A stretch of 43,371 nucleotides of DNA from Sulfuricurvum sp. (GTDB lineage Bacteria; Campylobacterota; Campylobacteria; Campylobacterales; Sulfurimonadaceae), in the NCBI RefSeq assembly GCF_019163035.1, contig NZ_JAFLKV010000036.1, forward strand, positions 1-43,371, read 5' to 3'. Under the pieces are notes generated by a model. The model was not told where the DNA came from. It saw only the letters and a list, made by a program, of their open reading frames with translations, and did no database searches. A program made the position numbers and the translations under genes. This document shows positions 5 to 20,114 of this stretch, in pieces (positions within the stretch are counted from its first letter, which is position 1; each line of letters begins with the position of its first letter).

Positions 5-1060
5 TTAATCAACTAGTATTGCTCTTAACTGTCTATACTTATAGATTATTTTTTCTCCAATACTCTCTACCTCTTCATGCGTCATTTTTCCAAATGAAAA
101 ACTGATCGCCATGCTAGCTTCTTCTGTTGAATACCCTATAACCTTCAAAATACGTGAGGGTTGAGATAATCCCAGAGAACAAAGCTCTCCGTTGGTTAAA
201 AAGATCCCTTCAAGTGCCATAGATCGGATCAAATCTCGGGCAAATATACCATCAAATCCGATATAACAGGTATTAGGGAGAGTCAAGCTAGGATTTATCA
301 TCAACTTCACTCTGCACCCAAGAGCATCTGTAATTTGCTTCACAAAACAATCTCGTATATTTCTTATGTGGTCATAAGAATCATTTGCCGATTTCATATA
401 CGTATGATAAAAATGATCATAAACTGTTAGATCGATAGCGGGGATCATATCTGAGAAATTACATTTACTGCAAAGGAAAACACCCGAATGTTTAAACGAA
501 CCCACTTTATAGCCCCAGACAAATGCCGCAAATACTTTGGGTGTGTTCTCAAGTTTCAACGCATTGCTTAAATCCAAAATTAGATGTTTCATGTCAAAAT
601 ATCGGTTAACTCTTTTCATTGACTCAATATAAAATGTATCTTCATCAACCGCACTGCACACTAAATAGCGAGCTCCGCGCTCTTTAGCCAAAGCCAAAGA
701 TTTTTCACACAGTCCACCCGCGGAATCAGCATCTATCCAGAGAACGGTACGCCCTGATTTTTCGAGAATTAGTCCTGCATGATAAAGATTATAAGGGAGC
801 TTTGAAGAAAAGGCGATGATCTCTTTTGACGGAACGGCCTGATCGATAAAAAAACTCACAGCAGTAGGCGAAAAATTACAAAATACTCCTTCGGAATATC
901 CGAAAGATGATGCGAAGGAGCGGTTTAAATTTTTTAAGAGTTCAAGACTTTCACCATCACCGCTGCGTAAGCGTATCCCTATGGGTGCGGATTCAAACGG
1001 CTGAAAGCTCGGTGCGTGGTTGACATCGAGACAATAGAGCTTTTTATGAGGCTGCAACAC
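5..1060 (-). CDS. Cysteine desulfurase-like PLP enzyme (NifS/IscS-like aminotransferase class V), divergent
   Basis: 351 aa ORF; PLP-Lys-like segment WGYKVGSFKHSGVF (cf. SAHKxxGPKG) and Cys-loop-like LTNGELCSLGLSQPSRILKVIG followed by ISFSFGKMTHEEV (cf. SSGSACSSG...LRxSLGRxTTEEE); start overlaps the fdhD 3' end. Confidence 0.75.
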   Translation of the reverse strand: MLQPHKKLYCLDVNHAPSFQPFESAPIGIRLRSGDGESLELLKNLNRSFASSFGYSEGVFCNFSPTAVSFFIDQAVPSKEIIAFSSKLPYNLYHAGLILEKSGRTVLWIDADSAGGLCEKSLALAKERGARYLVCSAVDEDTFYIESMKRVNRYFDMKHLILDLSNALKLENTPKVFAAFVWGYKVGSFKHSGVFLCSKCNFSDMIPAIDLTVYDHFYHTYMKSANDSYDHIRNIRDCFVKQITDALGCRVKLMINPSLTLPNTCYIGFDGIFARDLIRSMALEGIFLTNGELCSLGLSQPSRILKVIGYSTEEASMAISFSFGKMTHEEVESIGEKIIYKYRQLRAILVD

Positions 1061-3495: not shown

Positions 3496-6336
3496 CTACG
3501 CTTTTTCAATACGCACGAGCGTACATTTGGTTTCAGGGCAAGCGGTGACAATGTCATACCCGTAACTTGTAACCTGATTCGAGTTTTCTCCGAGCGCATA
3601 CGGTGCAGTCCCCTTCGGATATTTGTCTACGAGGCTTTTACCGCTCCATAGACCCGAAAAGTTTTGCGGCATGAAAATATCCGTTTCAGCGACCGAATAA
3701 CTGTAGACCGCTTTGACTTTAATCTTACCTTCGCCCGTTCCATGTACCCAAATCATGTCACCGTTATCAACCCCATATTTTTTGGCGAGTGTCGGATGGA
3801 TATGTGCGTACATTTCCCCCGCTAGTTCGGCCAAATATTTTGAGGCTCGAGTTTCGGTTCCCGTACCCATGTGTTCAACAATACGTCCTGTGACCACATT
3901 GATCGGGAAATCCGCAACCCAGTTTTGTTTGTTCTGCTCACTGGCGTAACGAATGTTCGTACGATAGTGATCTTTTTTGTCTTCAAACGTCGGATATTTG
4001 GCAACCAAATCTTGACGGAAGCTGTGAAGCGGTTCACGGTGTTTAGGAAGTTGGTCAGCCCAATCCCATGCACGTGCTCTCGCTTTTCCGTTTCCGTACG
4101 GACATAGTCCTGCTTCCAACGCTTTGTTAACCAGAATATACGTATTATCGTTTTTCCAGTTTTTACCTTTGACTTTCTCTTTTTCTTCAGCCGTTAACGT
4201 GATGCCGAAAGATTCGATATTGTCTGCGGTAATTTCAAGATGCCCGCCTTTGAATCGTGAACCGGCCGGTTCATTAACCGCAAGCAATGTTTGTCCATTT
4301 TTCTCAGCGACAACCACTGGCTTGCCATCAGGTCCCTTGTCCGTCCATCCTGCACGGAATCCCATACCACCTTCCATAACCGAAACATCGGTTCGGTACA
4401 TGATCGGAGTTCCCGGGTGTTTATCACTCCAGCACGGCCACGGCAATCCGTAATACTCACCCTCAACCACACCGGAGCCTCTTAGAGTAAGCGGATCAAA
4501 CAGCGCCCAATTCTCTTGTTGGCGTTTCATACGTTCCGGTGTTACCCCTTGAAGACCGATTGTTTTGACGGCACGGTTAAACTCTCTTGTCGCATCTTCC
4601 GGCCATTCATAACTCGGTTTACCGTTTTTCAACGAACGGGTAAATTCTTCATAGAATCCGAGTCGTTTTGCAAATTCAAATAAAATTTCGTGGTCTTCTT
4701 TTGCTTCATACAAAGGTTTCACAACCTGTGAACGCCATTGATAACTGCGATTTGTCGCCGCTACCGAACCTGAACTTTCAACTTGGCTGGCTGCCGGAAG
4801 CAAGAACATATTATCGGTACGATCGGTAATAACCGCCGCATCATTGACATACGGATCGATAAAGACGACCAAATCTAGTTTGTCTAACGCTTCTTTCGTT
4901 TTATGGGTCATTGTAATGGTTGAAATACCGTTCCCGATACAAATCAACGCTTTGAGCGGTGTACCCGCATTGTTTGCGGCATTCTCATCATCAATAACAC
5001 CCCAAGGCCATGTAGAGAGGGCAAACCCTTTTTTCTCCATCATATCTTTGGTTTTAAATCGACCTTTTAACCATTCGTAATCGACTTGCCATTGTCCTGA
5101 ATAATATTTCCAAGACCCCTCATTGATCGGGTAGTATCCCGGCAAAATGTCGGATAGATTGGCCATATCACTCGCCCCTTGAACATTATCATGTCCGCGA
5201 AGAATGTTACATCCGCCACCCACTTTTCCGATATTTCCGAGGAACATTTGCATAATAGGCCCTAAACGGGTATTGCTCGTTCCGATCGTATGCTGCGTCC
5301 ATCCCTGATTCCAGATCAAACAACCCGGGGAATTTTCTGCAAAGAGTTTCACCACTTCAAGGAATTTTTCCGCTGTACATCCACACACATTCGCAACGAC
5401 GTCCGGCGTATACTGTTCTGCTTCGACAACAATGGATTCCCAATCGAAAACACGCTCATCCAAATATTGCTTGTCATGCAAGTTGTTTTTAACAATGTAA
5501 CGGATCATTCCGTATAAAAATGCGATATCGGTTCCGGTTCGAATACGTGCAAACAAATCCGCATGCGCAGATGTTTTAGTATATCTCGGATCGATCGAAA
5601 TAATTTTCGCACCGTTCTCTTTGCCTTTTAGAATGTGTTGCATTCCGACAGGGTGATTGACCGCAGGATTAGCTCCCATAATCAAAATAACTTTCGAATT
5701 TTGCATATCTCCCAGATGGTTGGTCATACCGCCATACCCAAGTGTATTCGCCACACCGGCGACTGTAGGGCTATGTCAGATACGAGCCTGATGATCGATA
5801 TTATTCGTTCCCATAAACGCGGCAAATTTGCGGATATAGTACGATTGCTCGTTCGATACTTTGGCTGACCCGAGCATCATGATGCTATCAGGTCCATATT
5901 TTTTTTGAAGAGCTTGAATTTGTGCACTGACCGAATCAAGTGCTTCATCCCATCCAATACGTTCCCAAACACCGTCTTTTTTGACTGTCGGGTAGCGTAA
6001 ACGATTGGTTGAACGCACTTTATCGATCAGGTCAGCACCTTTACAGCAATGACCGCCGAGACTTACAGGATGCTCTTGGGCAACCTCTTGTCTTACCCAG
6101 ACACCGTCTTTTACTTCCGCAATAATTCCGCATCCGACCGAGCAGTGGGTACAAATAGTTTTCACTTTTTTTGAACCCGGATAAGCTTCTTTCAGCTGAC
6201 TCGGCGTTGCTTTGACAACTGGTTCACTTGCTGAGCAAACAGCAACTGCACCGATCGAAGTGAGAGCACCCATTTTTAAAAATGAGCGGCGCCCAATCTT
6301 CGAATTCAACAATTCCGTTGAGTTTCTTGGACTCAT
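3496..6336 (-). CDS. fdhA: Formate dehydrogenase alpha subunit, selenocysteine-containing, Tat-exported (about 946 aa by UGA readthrough)
   Basis: ORF 6336..5776 ends at TGA (5776-5778) in context ...DHQARI-U-HSPTVAGVANTLGYGG and continues in frame to 3496; N-terminal RRSFLKMG Tat motif and CTHCSVGCG 4Fe-4S motif; SECIS-like hairpin follows the UGA; selA/B/C/D in the same window. Confidence 0.95.
5748..5762 (-). promoter_or_regulatory. Bacterial SECIS-like apical stem-loop downstream of Sec UGA
   Basis: Minus strand TCGCC-GGTGT-GGCGA, 13 nt after the UGA codon; GGU-type loop like E. coli fdhF SECIS (TTGCAGGTCTGCA). Confidence 0.75.
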
Positions 6337-8719: not shown

Positions 8720-8734
8720 GATACAGCCTGTATC
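8720..8734. promoter_or_regulatory. 15-bp palindrome in the fdh operon leader
   Basis: GATACAG-C-CTGTATC, perfect 7+1+7, 50-64 bp upstream of the first fdh operon start. Confidence 0.45.
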
Positions 8735-8857: not shown

Positions 8858-8874
8858 GTTAAAATATTTTTAAC
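8858..8874. promoter_or_regulatory. 17-bp palindromic operator candidate (between fdh operon and selC)
   Basis: GTTAAAA-TAT-TTTTAAC, perfect. Confidence 0.6.
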
Positions 8875-8917: not shown

Positions 8918-9020
8918 TGGCGAGAAGGTGAAGGAATTGAACCTTCCTTCGAACAGCCACCTGCCCGAACAATGGGTTTGAAGTCCATGGTGCCCACCAG
9001 GGTCACATACCTCCCATCTC
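8918..9020 (-). tRNA. selC: tRNA-Sec (UCA anticodon)
   Basis: Minus strand GAGATGGGAGGTATGTGACCCTGGTGGGCACCATGGACTTCAAACCCATTGTTCGGGCAGGTGGCTGTTCGAAGGAAGGTTCAATTCCTTCACCTTCTCGCCA; TCA anticodon loop CTTCAAA, long variable arm, T-loop GGTTCAAT, encoded CCA; next to selA. Confidence 0.93.
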
Positions 9021-9045: not shown

Positions 9046-9062
9046 GTTAAATATTTTTTAAC
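9046..9062. promoter_or_regulatory. 17-bp palindromic operator candidate (selA/selC)
   Basis: GTTAAATATTTTTTAAC, 18 bp upstream of the selA ATG. Confidence 0.6.
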
Positions 9063-9080: not shown

Positions 9081-10433
9081 ATGGAGACCCATAGCAGACC
9101 TGCCATCCCTCAACTGGGGAGATTTTTGGATCGAACTGAGTTTATCACTCTTAATCGCCAAACACTAACCATCTTAGCTCGTCAACTTTTTGAAGAGATT
9201 CGTCACGGTAAAACCGATATCGGAGCAAATACTGATGAGTCCGTTTTGGTAGAAATAATCTTATCCCGATTGGATACGCTGTGTCATGATTCATTGATTC
9301 CTTTGATCAACGCGACAGGGATTGTTTTGCATACCAATCTCGGACGAAGCCCCATCGAAAAATCAATACTTGATGAAATGCAGGAGAGCATCGGGAGCTA
9401 CTGTAATCTTGAATTTGATATTGATAGCGGAAAACGAGGGGAACGCTACGGACATTTGACTAAAAAACTCTCATTTTTACTGGGATGCGAAGATGCCATC
9501 GTCGTTAACAATAACGCAGCAGCCGTCTTTTTGATCCTAAATACCTTCGCTAAAGGAAAAGAGACCATCGTATCGCGAGGAGAATTGGTAGAGATCGGCG
9601 GTTCCTTTAGAATTCCCGATGTGATGAGGGAGAGTGGAACCCTGCTAAAAGAGATAGGGACGACCAACAAAACCAAAGCCTCTGATTATACGGCGGCAAT
9701 CACTCCGCAGACGGCGGTTATGATGAAGGTTCACCGCTCCAATTTCTCCGTTGTTGGTTTTACCCATGAGGTAGCATTTGAAGAGCTGATACCTATTGCT
9801 CAGTCTAATAATGTTATCGACTACTATGATGCCGGTAGTTTGAATCTTTTCGACGCTCCCTATCTGGGGAATGAAACGTGTGCCAAAGCACTGTTTGAAC
9901 ACGCACCTTCCCTCGTTAGCTTTAGCGGAGACAAACTGTTGGGCTCCGTACAAGCGGGAATCATCGCCGGAAAAAAAGAGCTCATCGACAAAATCAAAAA
10001 AAATCAACTCTTACGGATGCTTCGAGTCGATAAACTGACGATGTCCGTATTGGAAAAAACCCTTACTCGCTATATCCAAAAAGGGCCTCAGGCGATAAAA
10101 ACCCATAAACTCTTATCTAAAACACTTATTGATATGCAACTACAGGCTGATTTTGTCCTCTCAGGGGTTGATCACTCATATAAACTTTCCACAGGTAAAA
10201 CATCCACCTATGCGGGAGGAGGTTCACTTCCACAGCATCTGCTAGAGAGTCTCGCACTAATTATCGAAGATCACCCTAAAAATGCCGAACGCACGATTAA
10301 AGCACTCCGTGCGCAGGGTCTCATTGCCCGAATCGAAAAAGATAGGGTTCTTATCGACTTACGCAGTATCGATGATGATGAGCTATCACAGGTAATGAAG
10401 ATTTTAAATACCGTTTTGGAGGAACGCCCATGA
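9081..10433 (+). CDS. selA: L-seryl-tRNA(Sec) selenium transferase
   Basis: 450 aa; NATGIVLHTNLGRSPI and SFSGDKLLGSVQAGII motifs. Confidence 0.95.
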   Translation: METHSRPAIPQLGRFLDRTEFITLNRQTLTILARQLFEEIRHGKTDIGANTDESVLVEIILSRLDTLCHDSLIPLINATGIVLHTNLGRSPIEKSILDEMQESIGSYCNLEFDIDSGKRGERYGHLTKKLSFLLGCEDAIVVNNNAAAVFLILNTFAKGKETIVSRGELVEIGGSFRIPDVMRESGTLLKEIGTTNKTKASDYTAAITPQTAVMMKVHRSNFSVVGFTHEVAFEELIPIAQSNNVIDYYDAGSLNLFDAPYLGNETCAKALFEHAPSLVSFSGDKLLGSVQAGIIAGKKELIDKIKKNQLLRMLRVDKLTMSVLEKTLTRYIQKGPQAIKTHKLLSKTLIDMQLQADFVLSGVDHSYKLSTGKTSTYAGGGSLPQHLLESLALIIEDHPKNAERTIKALRAQGLIARIEKDRVLIDLRSIDDDELSQVMKILNTVLEERP

Positions 10434-12262
10434 AAACCACTATAGTCGGTCTGGCCGGACATGTCGATCACGGGAAAACGTCACTTATTCGTGCATTAAA
10501 CGGTTTTGACGGGGATCAGACCCGCGAAGAGAAACGGCGCGGTTTGACGATGGATCTCAGCTTTACACAGATGGATCAACAGGAGAAACGGATATTTTTA
10601 GTCGATGTTCCAGGACATGAAAAATTTGTAAAACACTATTTGGCAGGGGTATTCGGTTTCGACGTTCTTCTACTGATTGTCGCGGCTAATGAAGGGATTT
10701 GTAAACAAAGTATTGAGCATCTCGAACTCGCGCATCTTGCCGGAGTAAAAAGTGTTATTTTGGTTCTTACCAAATGCGATCTGGTAGAACCGGATGATGC
10801 GGCAATCGTCGAAAAAGATATTTTAAACCTCATCGAAAATATCGGTTTAAAGAGTTTATTTTCAGCTCATGTAGGACGACATGATCCCTCCTCCTACGAA
10901 CAGCTCAAACATAAACTCTTCTCGTATGATTTACCGCAACGTCCACAAGAGCCTTATTTTCGTTACTATATAGATCGGAGTTTTTCCAAAGACGGCTATG
11001 GAACCATTGTCACCGGAACCGTTTTAGGTGGTTCCTTAAAAACCAAAGATAAAATCACTATTCCGCGACTCAAAACTACCGCTATTGTTAGAACGATTCA
11101 TTCAGGGCTGAACTATGTCCCCACTGCCCTTCCGAATGAGCGTATAGCCCTTAACCTCTCAGGCGTAAAATCGCATGATCTTAAACGGGGAGATATCCTT
11201 TGTACCCCTAATTTTCTACGCGGCTTCCTTCAGATTGATGTCATGATCACGCCTCTCAAAGGGGTGACACTTAAACATCAAAGTGAAGCGACGGTATACA
11301 TAGGTTCAGCCCGCCACAACGTCGTATTAAAAATCATCTCCGAACATGACACCTATGCTATTGCCATTTTTGAAAGCACCACCCCGATTTACGCCTTGTA
11401 TCGTGAAAAATTTATTCTGCGTGATGCGCAGGGGACGCTCGGAGGAGGCGAAGTCCTTAATCCCATAGCCGATCCTATGAAACGAAAACAAAAAAATGAA
11501 TTTCTTCTTTTGCTACAGCAGAAAAAACTCTCCGAAGCGTTTGCTATGCTGATGGAGATTCATAAGAAAGGTTTCGGTTTGATCGGAGCCTATCAGCGTT
11601 TCGGGATGGATCATACCTCTGCGCTTGAGTTAGCAATGGGAGTTGCGAATTCTTACCTCGATCATGATGAAAAAGTACTTTATCCCTCTAGCACGTTAGA
11701 GATGCTTAAAGAGTATATTCGAGCGATTTATAAAAAAAACAGACGTGCCCTCCTCTCTAAAAACTCGCTCCATTTACGGTTTATCTGGGCATCTGTCAAT
11801 CTTTGCCAAGAAGTCCTTACTCAACTCGAATCAAATGATGAGCTACAATTTAGTGAGGGGTTATACCGAAGTGTCCATTGTGATATTGAAGATATGCCGC
11901 AGTATATGGAAGAGTCTCTCTATGGTATTTTAGAGACACAGGGGTGGGCACCAGAAGCTCCGTATGTGATTTATGAAAGTCTCGATCTTGATCGTATTCA
12001 CGGGGACGACACGATGAAACGGCTCTGCAGTGCCGGAAAAGTGATTCGACTGGCGCACAATCTTTTTATCAGCGCACCTCACCTATCGCACACGATGCAG
12101 TATCTACGCGGAGTCATCAGTGACTATGGATATGTCGATATCGAGCTGGCCAAAACGCAAACAGGGCTAAGCCGAAAGTATTTGATAGCCTATCTGGAAT
12201 ATCTTGACCGATTTGAAGATATACAATGCGAGGGTACTCGCCGATCTTTGAAGGCGGCATGA
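10430..12262 (+). CDS. selB: Selenocysteine-specific elongation factor
   Basis: 610 aa; GHVDHGKTSLIRAL, DVPGHEKFVKH, TKCD GTPase motifs and C-terminal winged-helix region; 4-bp overlap with selA. Confidence 0.95.
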   Translation: MKTTIVGLAGHVDHGKTSLIRALNGFDGDQTREEKRRGLTMDLSFTQMDQQEKRIFLVDVPGHEKFVKHYLAGVFGFDVLLLIVAANEGICKQSIEHLELAHLAGVKSVILVLTKCDLVEPDDAAIVEKDILNLIENIGLKSLFSAHVGRHDPSSYEQLKHKLFSYDLPQRPQEPYFRYYIDRSFSKDGYGTIVTGTVLGGSLKTKDKITIPRLKTTAIVRTIHSGLNYVPTALPNERIALNLSGVKSHDLKRGDILCTPNFLRGFLQIDVMITPLKGVTLKHQSEATVYIGSARHNVVLKIISEHDTYAIAIFESTTPIYALYREKFILRDAQGTLGGGEVLNPIADPMKRKQKNEFLLLLQQKKLSEAFAMLMEIHKKGFGLIGAYQRFGMDHTSALELAMGVANSYLDHDEKVLYPSSTLEMLKEYIRAIYKKNRRALLSKNSLHLRFIWASVNLCQEVLTQLESNDELQFSEGLYRSVHCDIEDMPQYMEESLYGILETQGWAPEAPYVIYESLDLDRIHGDDTMKRLCSAGKVIRLAHNLFISAPHLSHTMQYLRGVISDYGYVDIELAKTQTGLSRKYLIAYLEYLDRFEDIQCEGTRRSLKAA

Positions 12263-12336: not shown

Positions 12337-13497
12337 GTGATGATGCAAAAAAACATTAAACCCATATCTCTCCTATTGCTTCTCATCACACTGATCGTAC
12401 TCTATTTTCTATTCCCTTTTGAACGCGAACATAAAAACGATATCGTGTTTGGTAGCAGTGCCGCACTTTCGGGTCCATTGCAAGACAACGGTATCGATTA
12501 TACGAATGGAATAGCGTGCGGATTTAAGGCATTCAATGATGCCGGCGGAATACAAAATCGCCACATCAAGCTACGTGTATTGGATGACCAATACGAGCCT
12601 TTCATCACGAGAAAAAATATTGATTCTTTAATGCGGGATCCGGATTTATTCGGTATTCTCGGCGTTGTCGGAACACCTACCTCCGAAGAGGCACTCAAAA
12701 TCACTGCCAGAACGCAAATACCTTTTTTAATGCCCCTCAGCGGCGCTGAGTTTTTATATAACTACCATTATGAGCATCTCTTTACTCTCCGCCCGAGCTA
12801 CGCCGATGAAGCACGCCGAATGGTTCATCATATGCAAAAACAAAATATTCAAAAGATTGCAATTTTTTATCAAAACGATAGCTATGGACTTGCATCACTA
12901 TATGCCCTCCAAGAAGCAGTTCGTCCCACATCCATTAAAGTAATTGCCGAGGGGGTCTACAATCGCAATACACTCTCCATCCATTATGCGTTTAATGAGA
13001 TTACGAAAGCGCAGCCTGATGCCGTTGTGATCGGAGGTGCCTTAAAGCCGACTGTCGAGTTTATCCGCAAAACGGCACAGTTTAACCCGAATCTTTCATT
13101 TTATACTTTCTCTTTTGTCGGCTATGAACCTCTTCGCAAAGCTCTACTATCGGAAAATTTAAAGAACATACCGATGTACATGACCCAAACCGTCCCTCCA
13201 CTGAGTAAAAATCTCGCTGAAATCGTCCTTTTTAAACGTCTTTATAAACACTATTATCCATTGAAAGAACCGACTTCTATAGCATTTGAGGGATATCTGG
13301 CATCACAAGTTATCCTTAAAGCACTGAGTAATTCCTCAACGCTATCACGTTCTTCATTTGAGCATGCCCTCTCAAAACTTGAATTTTCTCTTGTTGATCG
13401 ACAAATAATCCGTTATAGCAAGTCATACCATCGGGGACTGCAAAATGTCTACCTTTTACCGTTAAACTCCGAAACCGGAGGTGATGTCGATGAGTAA
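12337..13497 (+). CDS. Type I periplasmic binding protein (branched-chain amino acid/amide ABC-type), likely sensory
   Basis: 386 aa; N-terminal hydrophobic anchor, IVFGSSAALSGPLQDNG...AFNDAGGIQNRHIKLRVLDDQY; no permease/ATPase nearby; overlaps kinase gene. Confidence 0.8.
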   Translation: MMMQKNIKPISLLLLLITLIVLYFLFPFEREHKNDIVFGSSAALSGPLQDNGIDYTNGIACGFKAFNDAGGIQNRHIKLRVLDDQYEPFITRKNIDSLMRDPDLFGILGVVGTPTSEEALKITARTQIPFLMPLSGAEFLYNYHYEHLFTLRPSYADEARRMVHHMQKQNIQKIAIFYQNDSYGLASLYALQEAVRPTSIKVIAEGVYNRNTLSIHYAFNEITKAQPDAVVIGGALKPTVEFIRKTAQFNPNLSFYTFSFVGYEPLRKALLSENLKNIPMYMTQTVPPLSKNLAEIVLFKRLYKHYYPLKEPTSIAFEGYLASQVILKALSNSSTLSRSSFEHALSKLEFSLVDRQIIRYSKSYHRGLQNVYLLPLNSETGGDVDE

Positions 13498-15097
13498 GCC
13501 GTGCCGCTATCTGAATATTTTTTATCAACTATCATTGGGGATGAAGACTCGTATATTGATCGCTGTTACTGCATTAGGGATTCTTATTATCGGATTCATT
13601 GCGACATTGACCCTGTATGGAATGAAAAATAGCTTCGATAATTCCTTTCATTTACGCACTCTCTCAATCGCCCGCCTCCAGACGATCAAAGACGTTCATA
13701 CCCTCAACATACTCAATACCTACCGAGATATTATCGATAACCACACCGATGTAGAAAAAACCTATGAAGTCCTTAATATTCTTAAAAAAAACCTCGATTT
13801 ACGTTGGAATGAGTACTCTTTGTCACGACACGATATTCAAACCAATTTTTTTGATACTATGGATGAAACGATACTTTCAACGTTTCTTACCCCTATTCCC
13901 AATACCATTATGATTGATGAAGACGAAATCTATTCGAAAGCGAATCTCAATATTCAGCGTCTCTTAAAAACCATCGATACGATAACGGTTCTTTATAAAA
14001 ACAACCAACGTCCACAAGCCGATGCACTTATCAAAAGTGATCTTTACCCGATTTTAGATACTACTAACATCTATTTAGAACAACTGACGGCCTTTCATTT
14101 ACAACGCTCCATCTATGAAAAAGAGAAAACGGATCGTCTATTTGGTGCTACTTCGTGGGTGATATTCGTAATGATATTTGTAGTTCTAGGAATTTCAGTC
14201 TTTTTGGCTTATTTCATATTAGAACATATCAAAACACTTCATCAATCACTAGAAGATCGTGTACGCGACAAAACCAAAGAACTCGTAGATCTAAATACAT
14301 CCCTTGAACTTCGTATTACACATGAGATTCGTCAAAGCAGGCTAAAAGATGAAATGCTCCATCAGCAGGCTAAACTAGCGTCTATGGGAGAGATGATTTC
14401 CAATATTGCTCATCAGTGGCGACAACCGCTTAACGCACTCACTATCCTAATTCAAACTTTCCGACTAAAAAGCCGCAGTAATAAATTGACGCCGGAGTTT
14501 ATCGATTCTCAAGTCACCGAAGGTCTCCGCATCGCAAACACTATGTCCGATACTATAGAGAGTTTCCAAAACTACTTTAAGCCGAATAAAGTGAAAACCA
14601 TTTTTCCTCTCCTTGAGACGATTCGCCATGCCGTTAGCTTGATTGAGGGGATATTGCATCATGCGAATATAGACGTTGAATTCAATACGAAAAAGGAGAT
14701 TATGATTTCAGGCTATCCGAACGATTTCACCCAAATCATTATCAATCTCCTCAATAATGCAAAAGACGCATTACTGATCTCACCCGACAAACTCAAAATG
14801 ATACGAATTCACATCACTCACAAACCGGAAAAATCACTCTTGCTCATCCGTATTATCGACAATGGAGGGGGCATTCCCTCCTCCGTTCTTAAAAGAATAT
14901 TTGAACCTTATTTTACGACAAAACATCAATCCAGCGGAACAGGTATAGGATTGTATATGACTCAAAAAATCATAGCAGACCAATTCGAGGGGATGATCAG
15001 TGCGCAAAATATCAGATTGCTTTTTAATGAAACCTATTATAATTGTGCTTCTTTTAAAATCACAATACCACTATTCGAGATTGAGAGTAAAACATGA
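13481..15097 (+). CDS. Membrane sensor histidine kinase
   Basis: 538 aa; two TM segments, SMGEMISNIAHQWRQPLNAL H-box, NLLNNAKDAL, DNGGGIP, GTGIGLYM. Confidence 0.9.
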   Translation: MMSMSKPCRYLNIFYQLSLGMKTRILIAVTALGILIIGFIATLTLYGMKNSFDNSFHLRTLSIARLQTIKDVHTLNILNTYRDIIDNHTDVEKTYEVLNILKKNLDLRWNEYSLSRHDIQTNFFDTMDETILSTFLTPIPNTIMIDEDEIYSKANLNIQRLLKTIDTITVLYKNNQRPQADALIKSDLYPILDTTNIYLEQLTAFHLQRSIYEKEKTDRLFGATSWVIFVMIFVVLGISVFLAYFILEHIKTLHQSLEDRVRDKTKELVDLNTSLELRITHEIRQSRLKDEMLHQQAKLASMGEMISNIAHQWRQPLNALTILIQTFRLKSRSNKLTPEFIDSQVTEGLRIANTMSDTIESFQNYFKPNKVKTIFPLLETIRHAVSLIEGILHHANIDVEFNTKKEIMISGYPNDFTQIIINLLNNAKDALLISPDKLKMIRIHITHKPEKSLLLIRIIDNGGGIPSSVLKRIFEPYFTTKHQSSGTGIGLYMTQKIIADQFEGMISAQNIRLLFNETYYNCASFKITIPLFEIESKT

Positions 15098-15762
15098 ACC
15101 ATTCACTTAATAAATACAACATCCTGATTGTAGACGATGAAGTACCTATTTTAAATCAAATGTCATTTATCTTAGAAGACTTTGTCGCCAAAGTCTATAC
15201 GGCAACCGATGGGATCACTGCGCTAGAGCAGCTTTCTAAACATAAAATTGATATTGTTATTACCGATATTTTAATGCCGAACATGAATGGCATAGCCTTC
15301 ATCTCCGAAATCAAAAAACGAAATATTTCTCTCTCAGCTATCATTATTACAACAGCTCATTCGGAAACGAACTATCTTCTTGATGCCATTAAATTACGCG
15401 TGGACGGTTACTTGCTTAAACCGATTATGGCAGATGAAATGCTCGAATTGATTGATAAATCAATAGCCCTAAAAGCCAAAGAAGATGAATTATGGATCAA
15501 AGACCGTATGCTTGAGGGGATTAGTACCTTTGTCGGAGGAAAAAAAATAGAGATTATCCGTTATCTCTTCGAGCATGTTGACGCGGAAAGTGTCTTTTAC
15601 GGCTCCTATGAAGATATTATGCTCGCACTCAACGTTAGCAAGCCGACCGTTGTTTCAACATTTAGACAGTTGATTGAGGTCGGTATTGTTACCAAACTCA
15701 AAAATAAAATTTATCGTGTAAATGCTTCAGCACACAGCGAGAAAAGTGTGATTGAACCTTAA
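15094..15762 (+). CDS. Response regulator with C-terminal winged-helix DNA-binding domain
   Basis: 222 aa; REC ILIVDDE...DIVITDILMPNMNG...LKP; C-term ALNVSKPTVVSTFRQLIEVGIVTKLKNKIYRV. Confidence 0.88.
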   Translation: MNHSLNKYNILIVDDEVPILNQMSFILEDFVAKVYTATDGITALEQLSKHKIDIVITDILMPNMNGIAFISEIKKRNISLSAIIITTAHSETNYLLDAIKLRVDGYLLKPIMADEMLELIDKSIALKAKEDELWIKDRMLEGISTFVGGKKIEIIRYLFEHVDAESVFYGSYEDIMLALNVSKPTVVSTFRQLIEVGIVTKLKNKIYRVNASAHSEKSVIEP

Positions 15763-15773
15763 AAAAGGTTCAA
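15752..15773. terminator. Bidirectional hairpin containing both convergent stop codons
   Basis: TTGAACCTT-AAAA-AAGGTTCAA, perfect 9-bp stem. Confidence 0.65.
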
Positions 15774-16565
15774 CCATTTCATTGCACTCTCAAGATCATT
15801 ATACCCTTGTAGCTCATACTCTCCCGTTATAACCCATTTGGATAACGCCTCCATCTCCATCATTTTGGTGATGTCGCTACGCTGAGTATCCATCCCCAGC
15901 ATAAATTCGACAAATTCATTAACATAGGATGCATTAGGGGTAATGTTGGTGAAATTGCAATGCGAATACCCTCGACTTTTGTAAAACGGTCTGAGCGACG
16001 AACCGCTCAGTCCCAGTTCGATCATCCGCATCCATGTCGATGTGGCAAGGGCGATAGCGTCGTATTCGTTATTTTTGAGTTTTTCCAAAATATCGTATTC
16101 GCTTCGTCCGGTATCGCCGTGTTTCCCCAAATCACTATCCATACGGTTCATCGTATAATCGCGATTTGGCTCTAACCCTTGCTCTTTTAAATAATAGGCG
16201 GGGAGGATAAACGCCTGTGCCGAGTCACCACTGCCGAAACAGACCCGTTTATTTTTCAAATCTTCCAATGTTTGGATATTGGAATCTTGATGGGCGATAA
16301 ACATCGAGGTAAAATCGACATCACTGTCCCGCATCAAAAGTGCTTCCGCAAACGGAGCACGTTTTTTCGTCCGAAGCCACGCGACATTGGTATTCCACGC
16401 CAAATCGACTTTGTGATCCAATAGCGCTTGTACCTGTGTCTCGTAATTGGAGAACAGTACATAATCAAGATCAAATTTTTTCTCTTTGGCATAATCACGG
16501 ATGATCTCCCAAATGAGGACTACTTTCGGGTCATACGCGACCACGCCTACCATTAATGATGCCAT
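15759..16565 (-). CDS. PhnD/SsuA-type substrate-binding-like protein without signal peptide
   Basis: 268 aa; VGVVAYDPKVVLIWEI...VDLAWNTNVAWL...KRVCFGSGDSAQAFILPAYYL; begins directly at the mature-like fold. Confidence 0.75.
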   Translation of the reverse strand: MASLMVGVVAYDPKVVLIWEIIRDYAKEKKFDLDYVLFSNYETQVQALLDHKVDLAWNTNVAWLRTKKRAPFAEALLMRDSDVDFTSMFIAHQDSNIQTLEDLKNKRVCFGSGDSAQAFILPAYYLKEQGLEPNRDYTMNRMDSDLGKHGDTGRSEYDILEKLKNNEYDAIALATSTWMRMIELGLSGSSLRPFYKSRGYSHCNFTNITPNASYVNEFVEFMLGMDTQRSDITKMMEMEALSKWVITGEYELQGYNDLESAMKWLNLF

Positions 16566-16580
16566 GTGAATTCCTTTTAT

Positions 16581-17705
16581 TTAGGGTATTTGTTGTCCGG
16601 TTAACGCTTTGCCGAGCCAAACGCTGAGTACATCGGTTGAGGGAGCCATAACCGCAGCGGCATACGCATCTCTCAAATAGCGCTCAAGCGGAAGCCGTTT
16701 GCTGTATGCGTGCCCTCCTCCGACTTTCATCGCACGGCTGCATACGTCCACCGCATTAGTACTCGCTTCCAATCGAGCCGATATAATCAACGCCAGAGCA
16801 TCGCTGCGTCCTTCCAGCGCGGCTTGTGCCGCATTGAGCGTTAATGCTTTGGAAGCACTCGCCGAAGAAAAAAGTGCTGCGATATGCAGCTGTACGGTTT
16901 CGATTTGCGAGAGAGTCGAACCGTCAGTATATGCGCGTGACGATGCATACTCAATCGCACATCCGCTGGCCGCAAGCGATAAACCCGTATAGACGGAGGC
17001 AAGCCCCAGAATAAAGAACGGAGCAACCACATTAAAGACAATTCCGACACCGTCTCCGTGAGCACCTACAAGATGATCGTCGCTGATGGCAACATTCTCA
17101 TAATAGACAGGGACACTGGCATTTCCTCGCATCCCTAATCCGTCCCAAGCACTATCGTCATGACGCATCCCTTCCATCGTATTGGGAGTTGCGAAAACGC
17201 TCAGCCCTTCTCCTTCGGGATTTGCGGCTAAAACAAGATAATAATCGGCATGATGCGCCGAGGTCACAAAGCTTTTTTTTCCGTTGAGAAGATATCCGTT
17301 CTCCGTTTTTACCGCTTTAATTTCGGGATTGTAAAAATGGGTTCCTGTCCCTGTTTCACTAAATGCAAGTGCCAAAGCCAACTCACCCGAAGCGATTTTC
17401 GGCAAATAAAACTCTTTTTGCTCCGATGTTCCGAAAGCAACGATGGACATCGTCGCAACGTTATGCATCATGTAGCACAGCGCGGTTGTTGCACACACGC
17501 TTCCCAATGCCATACATGTTTCGACGTGATCGACAATGCTTCCTGATGCGCCTCCGTACTCTTTAGGGACGAGCAAACCCGTATATCCCTCTTTTTTAAG
17601 AGCCGTATAGGCTTCTTTCGGAAATACACCCTCTCTATCGGCTTGCACCGTATACGGCGCGACATGACATTGCGCAAAAGCGCTCACTTCTTCAAATAAT
17701 CCCAT
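16581..17705 (-). CDS. Acyl-CoA dehydrogenase-fold flavoprotein
   Basis: 374 aa; LALAFSETGTGTHFYNPEIKAVKTENGYLLNGKKSFVTSA, GGGHAYSKRLPLERYLRDA; canonical C-terminal YEGT segment replaced by VMAPSTD. Confidence 0.85.
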   Translation of the reverse strand: MGLFEEVSAFAQCHVAPYTVQADREGVFPKEAYTALKKEGYTGLLVPKEYGGASGSIVDHVETCMALGSVCATTALCYMMHNVATMSIVAFGTSEQKEFYLPKIASGELALALAFSETGTGTHFYNPEIKAVKTENGYLLNGKKSFVTSAHHADYYLVLAANPEGEGLSVFATPNTMEGMRHDDSAWDGLGMRGNASVPVYYENVAISDDHLVGAHGDGVGIVFNVVAPFFILGLASVYTGLSLAASGCAIEYASSRAYTDGSTLSQIETVQLHIAALFSSASASKALTLNAAQAALEGRSDALALIISARLEASTNAVDVCSRAMKVGGGHAYSKRLPLERYLRDAYAAAVMAPSTDVLSVWLGKALTGQQIP

Positions 17706-17715
17706 TTATTCTTCC

Positions 17716-18936
17716 TTACATAAAATTTGCAGTATGAGACATAGATATCTCTTTAGCTGTTTCTTCATCAAATCCGCATTCGATCATGCGGCGTACTCGG
17801 TTTTCTCCCATCCTTTTTTTAAGTTGCTCCACCCGCTCATATCCGAGCGCATACCCATCTTCATCACTTCCTCCGGCTAAAATGGCTAAGGAGGAGAGCA
17901 AAAGCTCATTTTCCTGATTCATCTCATCCAAATACACTTTTCGGCTATCCACCGCCTCTTTCAGATACGCTATTCTTTTAGGATTGGCCTGAACAAGCGC
18001 TTTGACATGTACCAATCCGTAATTGACATGACGCTGTTCATCTTTTTTGGCAAGGGTGACAATTTTTTTCGTGACTGGATCGGGGGCGTATTTGATCAGA
18101 AAATCGAGCAGATCCAAAAAGGTCCCCTCTCCCAATACGTGAAGTAAAAATGAAGTTTTAAAATAGTCTTTTTCGATAAAAAGAGAGTAGAGGGAACGTT
18201 GCGTTGCGGTCGTCGAGTATTGCAGTCCTATTTTTTTTGCATTGGCACGACGTGAAAATGCTTCGATATGACGTGCTTCATCATAAATGATTGTCCCCAG
18301 AAACATCACCAGTTCCATATAATAGGGAGAAATTTTGGACAAAAATTTTCCGGGGATATACAAAGCGGAGAACTCATTTTCCGCGAGATAGGTCATCACC
18401 TGACATATCGCCGTTTCAATCTCAGGATCAAGATCGGGGATCGCTGCCCAATCTATATCGGTATCGGCACTCCATTGATTCTGCTTCGCTTCTTCATAAA
18501 GCCGTGTGACATTTTTTGCCCAAAGAAACTCTTTTTCGCTCAGTTCAAAAGCATACAGAGGAGAGGAGTTTTCGATATGGGCACCGCGGGGCATTAAACC
18601 AAAGAGTTTCGGCGCGACATCAAGCGCCGGTTCTGTTCGTCCATCAAACCCTTGTTCATCCGATAGAGTATGCGATTCAAAATCTTTTCGTACAAGATAC
18701 GAAAAACCCTCAAGATCGGAACTGGTAGCGACTAGAGAACATCGATTGACCTGTACCCACCCCTCAAATTCAAAAGATACGGAACGCTGAACAACGGTAA
18801 CTTTAAAGATTTCACCCATCCGAAGCGTCGGAAGAAGTGCATTAAGGCGTAAAAGCCAGGCCTGAGTGAGGGAAGAAGAACGTATCGTATGTTCTGCGAC
18901 ATACGTGTTCATTAAAAAGAGGTCTTGTCGTTCCAT
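17716..18936 (-). CDS. Ferritin-like diiron carboxylate protein
   Basis: 406 aa; E...ExxH...E...ExxH pattern: ENEFSALYIPG, DEARHIEAFSRR, GEGTFLDLLDF, DEQRHVNYG. Confidence 0.8.
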   Translation of the reverse strand: MERQDLFLMNTYVAEHTIRSSSLTQAWLLRLNALLPTLRMGEIFKVTVVQRSVSFEFEGWVQVNRCSLVATSSDLEGFSYLVRKDFESHTLSDEQGFDGRTEPALDVAPKLFGLMPRGAHIENSSPLYAFELSEKEFLWAKNVTRLYEEAKQNQWSADTDIDWAAIPDLDPEIETAICQVMTYLAENEFSALYIPGKFLSKISPYYMELVMFLGTIIYDEARHIEAFSRRANAKKIGLQYSTTATQRSLYSLFIEKDYFKTSFLLHVLGEGTFLDLLDFLIKYAPDPVTKKIVTLAKKDEQRHVNYGLVHVKALVQANPKRIAYLKEAVDSRKVYLDEMNQENELLLSSLAILAGGSDEDGYALGYERVEQLKKRMGENRVRRMIECGFDEETAKEISMSHTANFM

Positions 18937-18957
18937 AAAGTCTCCGATAGAGGCAGG

Positions 18958-18990
18958 AACAACAGCATGATCAGAGCGACGGCTGTTGTT
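18958..18990 (-). other. Stem-loop in 5' leader of the diiron operon
   Basis: AACAACAGC-15 nt-GCTGTTGTT, perfect 9-bp stem, 22 bp upstream of the start codon. Confidence 0.5.
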
Positions 18991-18991
18991 T

Positions 18992-19006
18992 GTCTAAGCC
19001 TTAGAC
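18992..19006. promoter_or_regulatory. 15-bp palindrome in diiron operon leader
   Basis: GTCTAAG-C-CTTAGAC, perfect 7+1+7. Confidence 0.45.
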
Positions 19007-19026
19007 CTTATAGCGCCAAAAATTAA

Positions 19027-19043
19027 GTTAAAAATATTTTAAC
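19027..19043. promoter_or_regulatory. 17-bp palindromic operator candidate (diiron operon)
   Basis: GTTAAAA-ATA-TTTTAAC, perfect. Confidence 0.6.
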
Positions 19044-19064: not shown

Positions 19065-20114
19065 TTAATTACTATCAATTACTACAATATCATAGCCCTC
19101 ATAGGGGAGAACGTCACCGACAATAGCGGCACTCAAACCTGAATCAATGCATTTCACTACCATTTGTTGTGCAAATTCCTGAGGTACACTCACTAAAAGT
19201 CCCCCCGAGGTCTGAGCATCAAACAGAATCATTTCCCGCTCAAATTCGATCGAAGAGGCTAAATAGACATGCGGTTTATTATACTCACGGTTGGCATGCG
19301 ATCCTGCGGGGATAATCCCCATAGAAGCCATTTCAATCGCTTCGGGAAAATAGGGAACCTTAGCGAGATCAACCCGCATCGTCACGTTTCCAGCACTCAT
19401 CTCCCGCATGTGTCCCATAAAACCGAAGCCCGTTACGTCCGTACACGCCGATGCGTGAGACTCTCTGGCGATCAATGAGGCTTTATAATTAAGGGTACGG
19501 AGATTTTCGGCCACTTTCATGGCAAGTACTGGATCTAGCAGATCAGACTTAATCGCCGTAATCAAAATCCCCATCCCCAAAGGTTTGGTCAATATAAGAA
19601 CATCTCCGATCTTCGGGGTATTGTTACGCAGTACTTTATTCGGATGGACAAACCCCGTACATGAGAGACCATACACCATTTCAGGTGTTCGGATCGTATG
19701 CCCGCCGACGATTACCGCTCCGCACTCGATCGCTTTATTCTGCCCTCCTCTCATGATTTCTGAGAGGATTTCAGGCGTGTGGTGCTCAGAATCAAATCCG
19801 ACCACATTAAGTGCCGTTTTGGCATCCCCACCCATCGCAAACACATCACTGAGTGAATTTGCAGCAGCAATTTGCCCATAGATGTAAGGGTCATCCACAA
19901 CTGGAGTAATAAAATCAACAGTCTGAACAATAGCCAAATCATCATTGATTTTATAGACTCCCGCATCTTCATTTCCTTCAAAACCGACAATCAAGTCTTT
20001 GTGAAATGATTGGATATGACATGTCGATTCGGCTAAAGATCCGGGTGAAAGCTTGGCGGCACACCCTGAAGCACGAACAAATTTTGTGAGTTTAGCATCA
20101 GTATTCATCATCAT
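19065..20114 (-). CDS. selD: Selenide, water dikinase (selenophosphate synthetase), Cys type
   Basis: 349 aa; RASGCAAKLSPGSL active site (Cys codon TGT), DFITPVVDDPYIYGQIAAANSLSDVFAMGG, TDVTGFGFMGH, DAQTSGGLL. Confidence 0.95.
   Translation of the reverse strand: MMMNTDAKLTKFVRASGCAAKLSPGSLAESTCHIQSFHKDLIVGFEGNEDAGVYKINDDLAIVQTVDFITPVVDDPYIYGQIAAANSLSDVFAMGGDAKTALNVVGFDSEHHTPEILSEIMRGGQNKAIECGAVIVGGHTIRTPEMVYGLSCTGFVHPNKVLRNNTPKIGDVLILTKPLGMGILITAIKSDLLDPVLAMKVAENLRTLNYKASLIARESHASACTDVTGFGFMGHMREMSAGNVTMRVDLAKVPYFPEAIEMASMGIIPAGSHANREYNKPHVYLASSIEFEREMILFDAQTSGGLLVSVPQEFAQQMVVKCIDSGLSAAIVGDVLPYEGYDIVVIDSN

Follow-up and report, generated by a model that had tools for sequence, protein, structure and literature searches.

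The question raised by this locus of Sulfuricurvum sp. is what three tightly spaced genes are doing amid the genes for selenocysteine (Sec) decoding. The genes, here called the cassette, lie on the minus strand of a 43,371-nucleotide stretch (contig NZ_JAFLKV010000036.1, the window), and code for a fusion of a TusA-like and a diiron domain, a flavoprotein with acyl-CoA dehydrogenase (ACAD) fold and a PhnD-like solute-binding protein (SBP). Little is understood of the ways in which bacteria sense selenium sufficiency and draw selenium from organic or scarce sources, and a cassette that tracks Sec decoding over two phyla and possesses its own leader hairpin is a testable handle on both. On our present results, the cassette is a promising candidate for a so far unrecognised part of the way in which bacteria handle selenium. 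Its association with selenium is well supported by co-occurrence with SelA and by a DNA operator shared with the Sec genes.

Gene order, operator and co-occurrence with selenocysteine decoding

The cassette is composed of the TusA-like/diiron gene (17716-18936, minus strand, open reading frame (ORF) of 406 amino acids), the ACAD-fold flavoprotein gene (16581-17705, minus strand, 374 amino acids) and the SBP gene (15759-16565, minus strand, 268 amino acids). The ORF listing gives intergenic gaps of 10 and 15 bp, in exact agreement with the preliminary description of the locus, where three tight minus-strand genes had been placed between a trio on the selB side and selD. Profile searches located selD at 19065-20114 (minus strand), selA at 9081-10433 and selB at 10430-12262 (both plus strand); downstream of selA-selB, the trio codes for a periplasmic-binding-protein (PBP6), a histidine kinase and a response regulator (12337-15762, plus strand). 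The adjacency to selD holds in this window and is, among the carriers of the cassette, confined to Sulfuricurvum.

The palindrome described earlier as common to the cassette and the Sec genes is indeed shared. Exact copies of this 17-bp sequence, GTTAAAWATWTTTTAAC, are located before the fdh operon (8858-8874), before selA (9046-9062) and before the cassette (19027-19043), with 0.06 occurrences expected in the window at up to two mismatches. These three are the only exact matches in the whole 2.05-Mb genome. The cassette copy sits in the interval between selD and the diiron gene, some 22 bp past the selD stop codon and roughly 90 bp ahead of the diiron gene; for selD itself, a diverged version is all that is present. 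The palindrome is conserved in sister genomes, and Arcobacter cassettes are preceded by looser GGTAAA-N5-TTTACC elements, read by eye. The two-component trio is a likely candidate for the reader of the palindrome regulon, because it recurs in Arcobacter-type selenium/fdh loci (L177, 425-3805; L178, 1925-5314).

The order diiron-ACAD-SBP is kept in Sulfuricurvum, Arcobacter-type, Helicobacter-type and Brachyspira genomes. In a sample of 347 Campylobacterota genomes, SelA is present in all 41 genomes with the diiron gene, compared with 203 of the 306 without it (Fisher p 1.8e-7 by genome and 0.003 by genus, neither of which amounts to a full phylogenetic correction). Within the genus of the window, five of 41 genomes contain the cassette and exactly these five contain SelA, but the genes are linked there. 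The cassette does not adjoin selA or selD in Arcobacter, Helicobacter and Sulfurimonas, and linkage is therefore not the explanation of the co-occurrence. Further genomes with the diiron cassette, some of which duplicate genomes of the phylum sample, contain SelA in 20 of 21 cases, the exception being a metagenome-assembled genome (MAG) of 1.2 Mb. SelA was also found in 26 of 26 Brachyspira genomes examined, which is consistent but uninformative, since SelA is universal there. The selenium link proposed in the preliminary description is thus borne out, and the three genes do not occur routinely in genomes devoid of selenium genes. Conservation of the neighbourhood is partial: the three-gene order extends over several genera, whereas actinobacteria possess an ACAD-SBP pair followed by a radical S-adenosylmethionine (SAM) gene, without the diiron gene, and five of the seven such genomes lack SelA (present in two).

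As a side observation on Brachyspira, GrdA with an in-frame UGA was found in six of nine tested (loci L151-L156), so that glycine-reductase selenoproteins are made there; among the cassette-bearing Brachyspira included in the test, two yielded no GrdA.

A conserved hairpin in the cassette leader

The cassette carries a conserved, covarying hairpin that is missing from Rfam. In the window it reads GUCUA-AGGCU-UAGAC (18992-19006, minus strand) and is located 55 nt upstream of the diiron start codon; a second stem of the same mRNA leader, AACAACAGC/GCUGUUGUU, occupies 18958-18990 (minus strand). Another copy of the hairpin, GAUAC-AGGCU-GUAUC (8720-8734, minus strand), lies about 50 nt upstream of the gene for a 500-amino-acid ferredoxin-type protein heading the fdh operon. 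The corresponding forms are AUCUC-AGGUU-GAGAU in Arcobacter, AAUAAAC-CGUGA-GUUUAUU in Brachyspira and GUUUC-CGUGU-GAGAC, plus many variants, in Helicobacter; in Helicobacter-type cassettes the hairpin occurs once more, between the diiron gene and the ACAD gene. The hairpin was found in 42 of 54 cassette leaders, against 1.4 in shuffled sequences. Its stems span 5-7 bp and its loops are all CGUGH or AGGYU; a blind tally of loops over 51 leaders gave CGTGT in 15 and AGGTT in 13. All five stem pairs vary on both sides, among rows selected for pairing. The fair test is provided by 15-mers around the loop motif taken regardless of pairing: 20 of 32 distinct ones pair fully, compared with 2.7 of 32 after shuffling of the 3' arms (maximum 8 in 2000 trials). 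Neither the window leader nor those of seven other loci gave an Rfam match to the hairpin at gathering score, and a known riboswitch was rejected on this ground. In the window, the whole leader (18934-19010, minus strand) may adopt an alternative fold (z -2.8) that would pair the 5' arm of the hairpin with the region of the ribosome-binding site.

The loops recall the Sec insertion sequence (SECIS). The bacterial SECIS loop rule, a G within the first two nucleotides of the loop and then G or U (PMC13188914), is satisfied by all leader-hairpin loops. The leader hairpins also agree with the description of epsilonproteobacterial SECIS elements as 5/6-bp hairpins with an invariant loop G (PMC4607533), and the leader loop AGGUU resembles the loop AGGUCU of the E. 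coli SECIS, GGUUGC-AGGUCU-GCACC (PMC3834832). Judged by its sequence, the hairpin is a SECIS-like candidate and looks like a selenium-sensing switch. In a published SECIS model, the UGA precedes the loop by 16-37 nt and the energy must be -7.5 kcal/mol or lower; in the leaders inspected, no in-frame UGA precedes the hairpin. The stop codon of the diiron gene varies between TAA, TAG and TGA, and the cassette was rejected as a selenoprotein operon on both counts.

The untranslated leader of E. coli selAB reportedly contains a hairpin with a SECIS-type loop and no UGA, bound by SelB. The likeness consists in a hairpin with SECIS-type loop in an untranslated leader devoid of UGA; the cassette hairpins differ in preceding a non-sel operon, in belonging to mRNAs of another phylum and in being weaker. 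The cassette hairpin would act at most like this UGA-less SECIS-like element, for which PMC8124441 cites Thanbichler and Boeck (2002).

Genes other than those of the cassette are also headed by the hairpin. In relatives of Arcobacter it occurs before Cys-containing fdhA (loci L144, L147 and L189; a further one, L145, is GC-rich and doubtful). Counted by distinct loci, it lies upstream of three or four of nine Cys-fdhA genes and of none of about 36 Sec-fdhA genes. An automated test gave 4 of 9 against 0 of 38 (p 7e-4), where some of the 38 Sec-fdhA loci had been fetched twice and the upstream distances searched differed between the two scans; a recount with 36 Sec-fdhA genes yields p of about 0.0009 for four Cys loci and about 0.006 for three. 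The hairpin was not found upstream of selA in other genomes. In two genomes (G196 and G276) it lies in the spacer divergent from selD and heads other genes. Spacers of this kind (L160, 1856, minus strand; L165, 1338, minus strand; L166, 5842, plus strand) contain it ahead of genes that were named by eye: a Cys-FdhA operon, a 2-hydroxyacyl-CoA dehydratase-like/activase pair and a transglutaminase-like/MerT/HMA operon. In L144, L147, L148 and L189, the long leaders (300-450 nt) upstream of Cys-fdhA close with a terminator-like element made of a stem, GGGG, a T-run and CCC. This element is conserved, sits right before a small twin-arginine gene preceding Cys-fdhA or before fdhA itself and may serve transcription attenuation.

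The three proteins

The product of the first gene had been described as a diiron protein, which holds true for its diiron domain; a second, TusA-like domain had been overlooked. This N-terminal domain (amino acids 1-84) has a beta-alpha-beta-alpha-beta-beta fold in the AlphaFold model, which is of moderate quality (mean predicted local distance difference test (pLDDT) 76, linker below 50). PF01206 (TusA) is matched by 16 of 23 homologues (best 4.9e-8), and a profile of the domain retrieves the TusA structures 1dcj and 3lvj (E 4e-4); the domain is TusA-like. The sulfur-carrying Cys of the TusA CPxP motif is absent from it, its place being taken by an IPxGK-type sequence. SirA/TusA-like proteins have a link to SelD (PMC2432076), and the cassette protein resembles the YedF/SirA-like selenium proteins of that study in having a TusA-type domain in a selD-linked gene. 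It differs from them in lacking the conserved CPxP Cys and in being fused to a diiron oxidase instead of DsrE.

Amino acids 140-406 form an R2lox-like diiron oxidase domain. The E/ExxH/E/ExxH motif noticed earlier (E188, E220xxH223, E270, E300xxH303) provides the metal ligand set of a four-helix bundle and shows little or no variation among 29 homologues; the C-terminal HTxNFM is invariant. R2lox entries are the top fold matches (TM up to 0.66); R2lox is the nearest neighbour of the domain in both structure and sequence and has the carboxylate/histidine ligand pattern in common with it. Similarity is low, however, the cassette protein adds the TusA-like domain, and its score of 44.4 bits against the curated R2lox family NF006200 lies below the cut-off of 194 bits. 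Two damaged copies were seen: a diiron gene with a single in-frame stop in an Arcobacter MAG (L041, 7570-8860), due to decay or sequencing error, and a solitary diiron-gene fragment with four in-frame stops in a Brachyspira genome (G439:C2:461375-461581), a decayed cassette.

The second protein matches the ACAD fold and its domain profiles, as expected from the preliminary description. The position of the catalytic Glu of short- and medium-chain acyl-CoA dehydrogenases (SCAD/MCAD) aligns to an invariant Ala, with VMAPS in place of IYEGT, and ordinary alpha,beta-dehydrogenation of acyl-CoA therefore appears unlikely. The nearest NCBIfam family is the distantly related Rv1679/FadE16 (NF049984; 263.8 bits, below the curated cut-off of 600).

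The third protein, too, proved to be what it had been taken for, a cytosolic protein with PhnD-like solute-binding fold. Its AlphaFold model is confident (pLDDT 92.9), the fold is of PhnD/PtxB type (match to PhnD1, 5lq8, at E 3e-22), and the protein has no export signal peptide, beginning at the mature fold. It shares fold and general pocket layout with the PhnD, PtxB, AioX and ArrX binding proteins. Apart from the missing signal peptide, it differs from them in that the anion-binding STS motif of PhnD1 reads SAQ, in the invariant motifs HCNF and DxGKHGDTGxS (AWNTNVAW and GSxDSxQA are likewise invariant), and in that no ABC transporter gene was found adjoining the cassette. The nearest NCBIfam family is the distantly related Rv1680 (NF049985; 268.8 bits, below the curated cut-off of 400); besides it, the top functional-family match is a 'putative selenate' binding protein, whose cut-off the score of 81.6 bits does not reach. 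An enzyme of menaquinone-type or Thi5-type PBP fold was considered and rejected, Thi5 being a distant fold match with nothing further to support it. The mycobacterial Rv1679 (FadE16)-Rv1680 pair resembles the second and third cassette genes in both folds, in gene order and in full-length match; the actinobacterial loci differ in their radical-SAM gene, in the lack of a diiron/TusA protein and, mostly, of SelA. No published work bearing on the function of Rv1679 or Rv1680 was found.

Possible role and competing explanations

We tentatively favour the reading that the cassette is part of a selenium regulon in Sec-decoding bacteria, controlled by operator and SECIS-type hairpin and coding for selenium-salvaging oxidative enzymes. 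We infer its working parts, from the reader of the hairpin and the sign of the control to substrate, chemistry and salvage, as follows. The shared palindrome would tie the cassette to the sel and fdh genes in Sulfuricurvum, and the UGA-less leader hairpin would couple its expression to selenium status, the simplest reader being SelB, either alone or in company with Sec-tRNA, as in the case of the selAB leader of E. coli. A small molecule containing selenium (or sulfur) would be oxidised or cleaved by the TusA-like/diiron protein and the flavoprotein that lacks the Glu, the cytosolic PhnD-like protein would bind the anionic substrate or product and pass it on, and selenium would be freed for SelD when Sec-tRNA is short. 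Selenium or sulfur chemistry is suggested because of the TusA-like domain, the similarity to selenium-associated PhnD-type SBPs and the Sec co-occurrence, and oxidation because of the diiron domain and the Glu-less flavoprotein. The preliminary description guessed at redox or oxygenase chemistry on a small molecule containing selenium, sulfur or phosphorus; for a selenium or sulfur compound, such a step remains plausible. If the scheme is true, SelB would be a regulator outside its own operon as well as an elongation factor, and the R2lox/ACAD/SBP combination, which has mycobacterial relatives, would receive its first function. A wider version, with a selenium-status regulon of Campylobacterota and Brachyspira in which SelB-read, UGA-less SECIS-like hairpins govern Cys-FdhA copies together with the new salvage enzymes, is possible but doubtful.

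Several observations weigh against a selenium regulon of this kind. Hairpin energies of -1.6 to -5 kcal/mol are weak compared with the SECIS threshold of -7.5 kcal/mol. The true fdhA SECIS (YGCC-GGUGU-GGCR) is missed by the covariance model of the leader hairpin; membership of the hairpin in that covariance family is therefore unsupported, and the leader hairpins form a distinct class at the sequence level. The window hairpin also heads the operon of a Sec-containing FdhA, unlike what simple repression by sufficient selenium would predict, and it equally contradicts a role of the element in the simple repression of selenium-free isoenzymes. Finally, the ACAD-SBP pair exists in SelA-less actinobacteria, so that the core chemistry need not involve selenium.

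The last point is at home in another explanation, which we regard as somewhat unlikely: ACAD and SBP may carry out the central part of some biosynthetic or catabolic step unconnected with selenium; the diiron gene would then be an O2-dependent replacement for the radical-SAM enzyme, and the Sec link a correlation of lifestyle. The top matches to Rv1679/FadE16 and Rv1680 and the actinobacterial ACAD-SBP-radical-SAM order agree with it, but it leaves unaccounted for that the diiron form is essentially restricted to SelA genomes across two phyla, that the operator is common to sel genes and that the leader hairpin is SECIS-like. The cassette may instead belong to a formate or formate dehydrogenase regulon, Sec co-occurrence following from FdhA there being a selenoprotein. 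Operator and hairpin common to the cassette and the fdh operon in Sulfuricurvum would fit, as would the hairpin upstream of some Cys-fdhA copies in Arcobacter and the presence of FdhA in every cassette-bearing Campylobacterota tested. We nevertheless consider it rather unlikely: three of three cassette-bearing Brachyspira have SelA and no match to the FdhA of the window (the one kind of formate dehydrogenase that was looked for), and the link is therefore not simply to this enzyme; Brachyspira cassettes carry the hairpin, and more than 30 Sec-fdhA upstream regions do not. Least probable, and in our view very unlikely, is that the cassette, like Cys-FdhA, is a selenium-free substitute for a selenoenzyme when Sec cannot be made, and not a selenium scavenger. 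The uneven distribution of the hairpin between Cys-fdhA and Sec-fdhA genes, within the searched distance, speaks for such a role; however, no selenoenzyme common to the carriers is obvious, with no FdhA found in the Brachyspira tested and no GrdA in two of the carriers tested there, and the cassette folds are unlike any known selenoenzyme.

The remaining Sec genes of the window complete the locus. The tRNA-Sec gene selC is located at 8922-9015 (minus strand; Rfam RF01852, 51.3 bits), and the fdhA selenoprotein gene at 3496-6336 (minus strand) has an in-frame UGA at 5776-5778, after which its SECIS, UCGCC-GGUGU-GGCGA, is found. In the same fdh locus, a NifS/IscS-like protein is encoded next to fdhD (5-1060, minus strand); its match spans just the C-terminal part of cysteine desulfurases, and it is a possible donor of selenium or sulfur.

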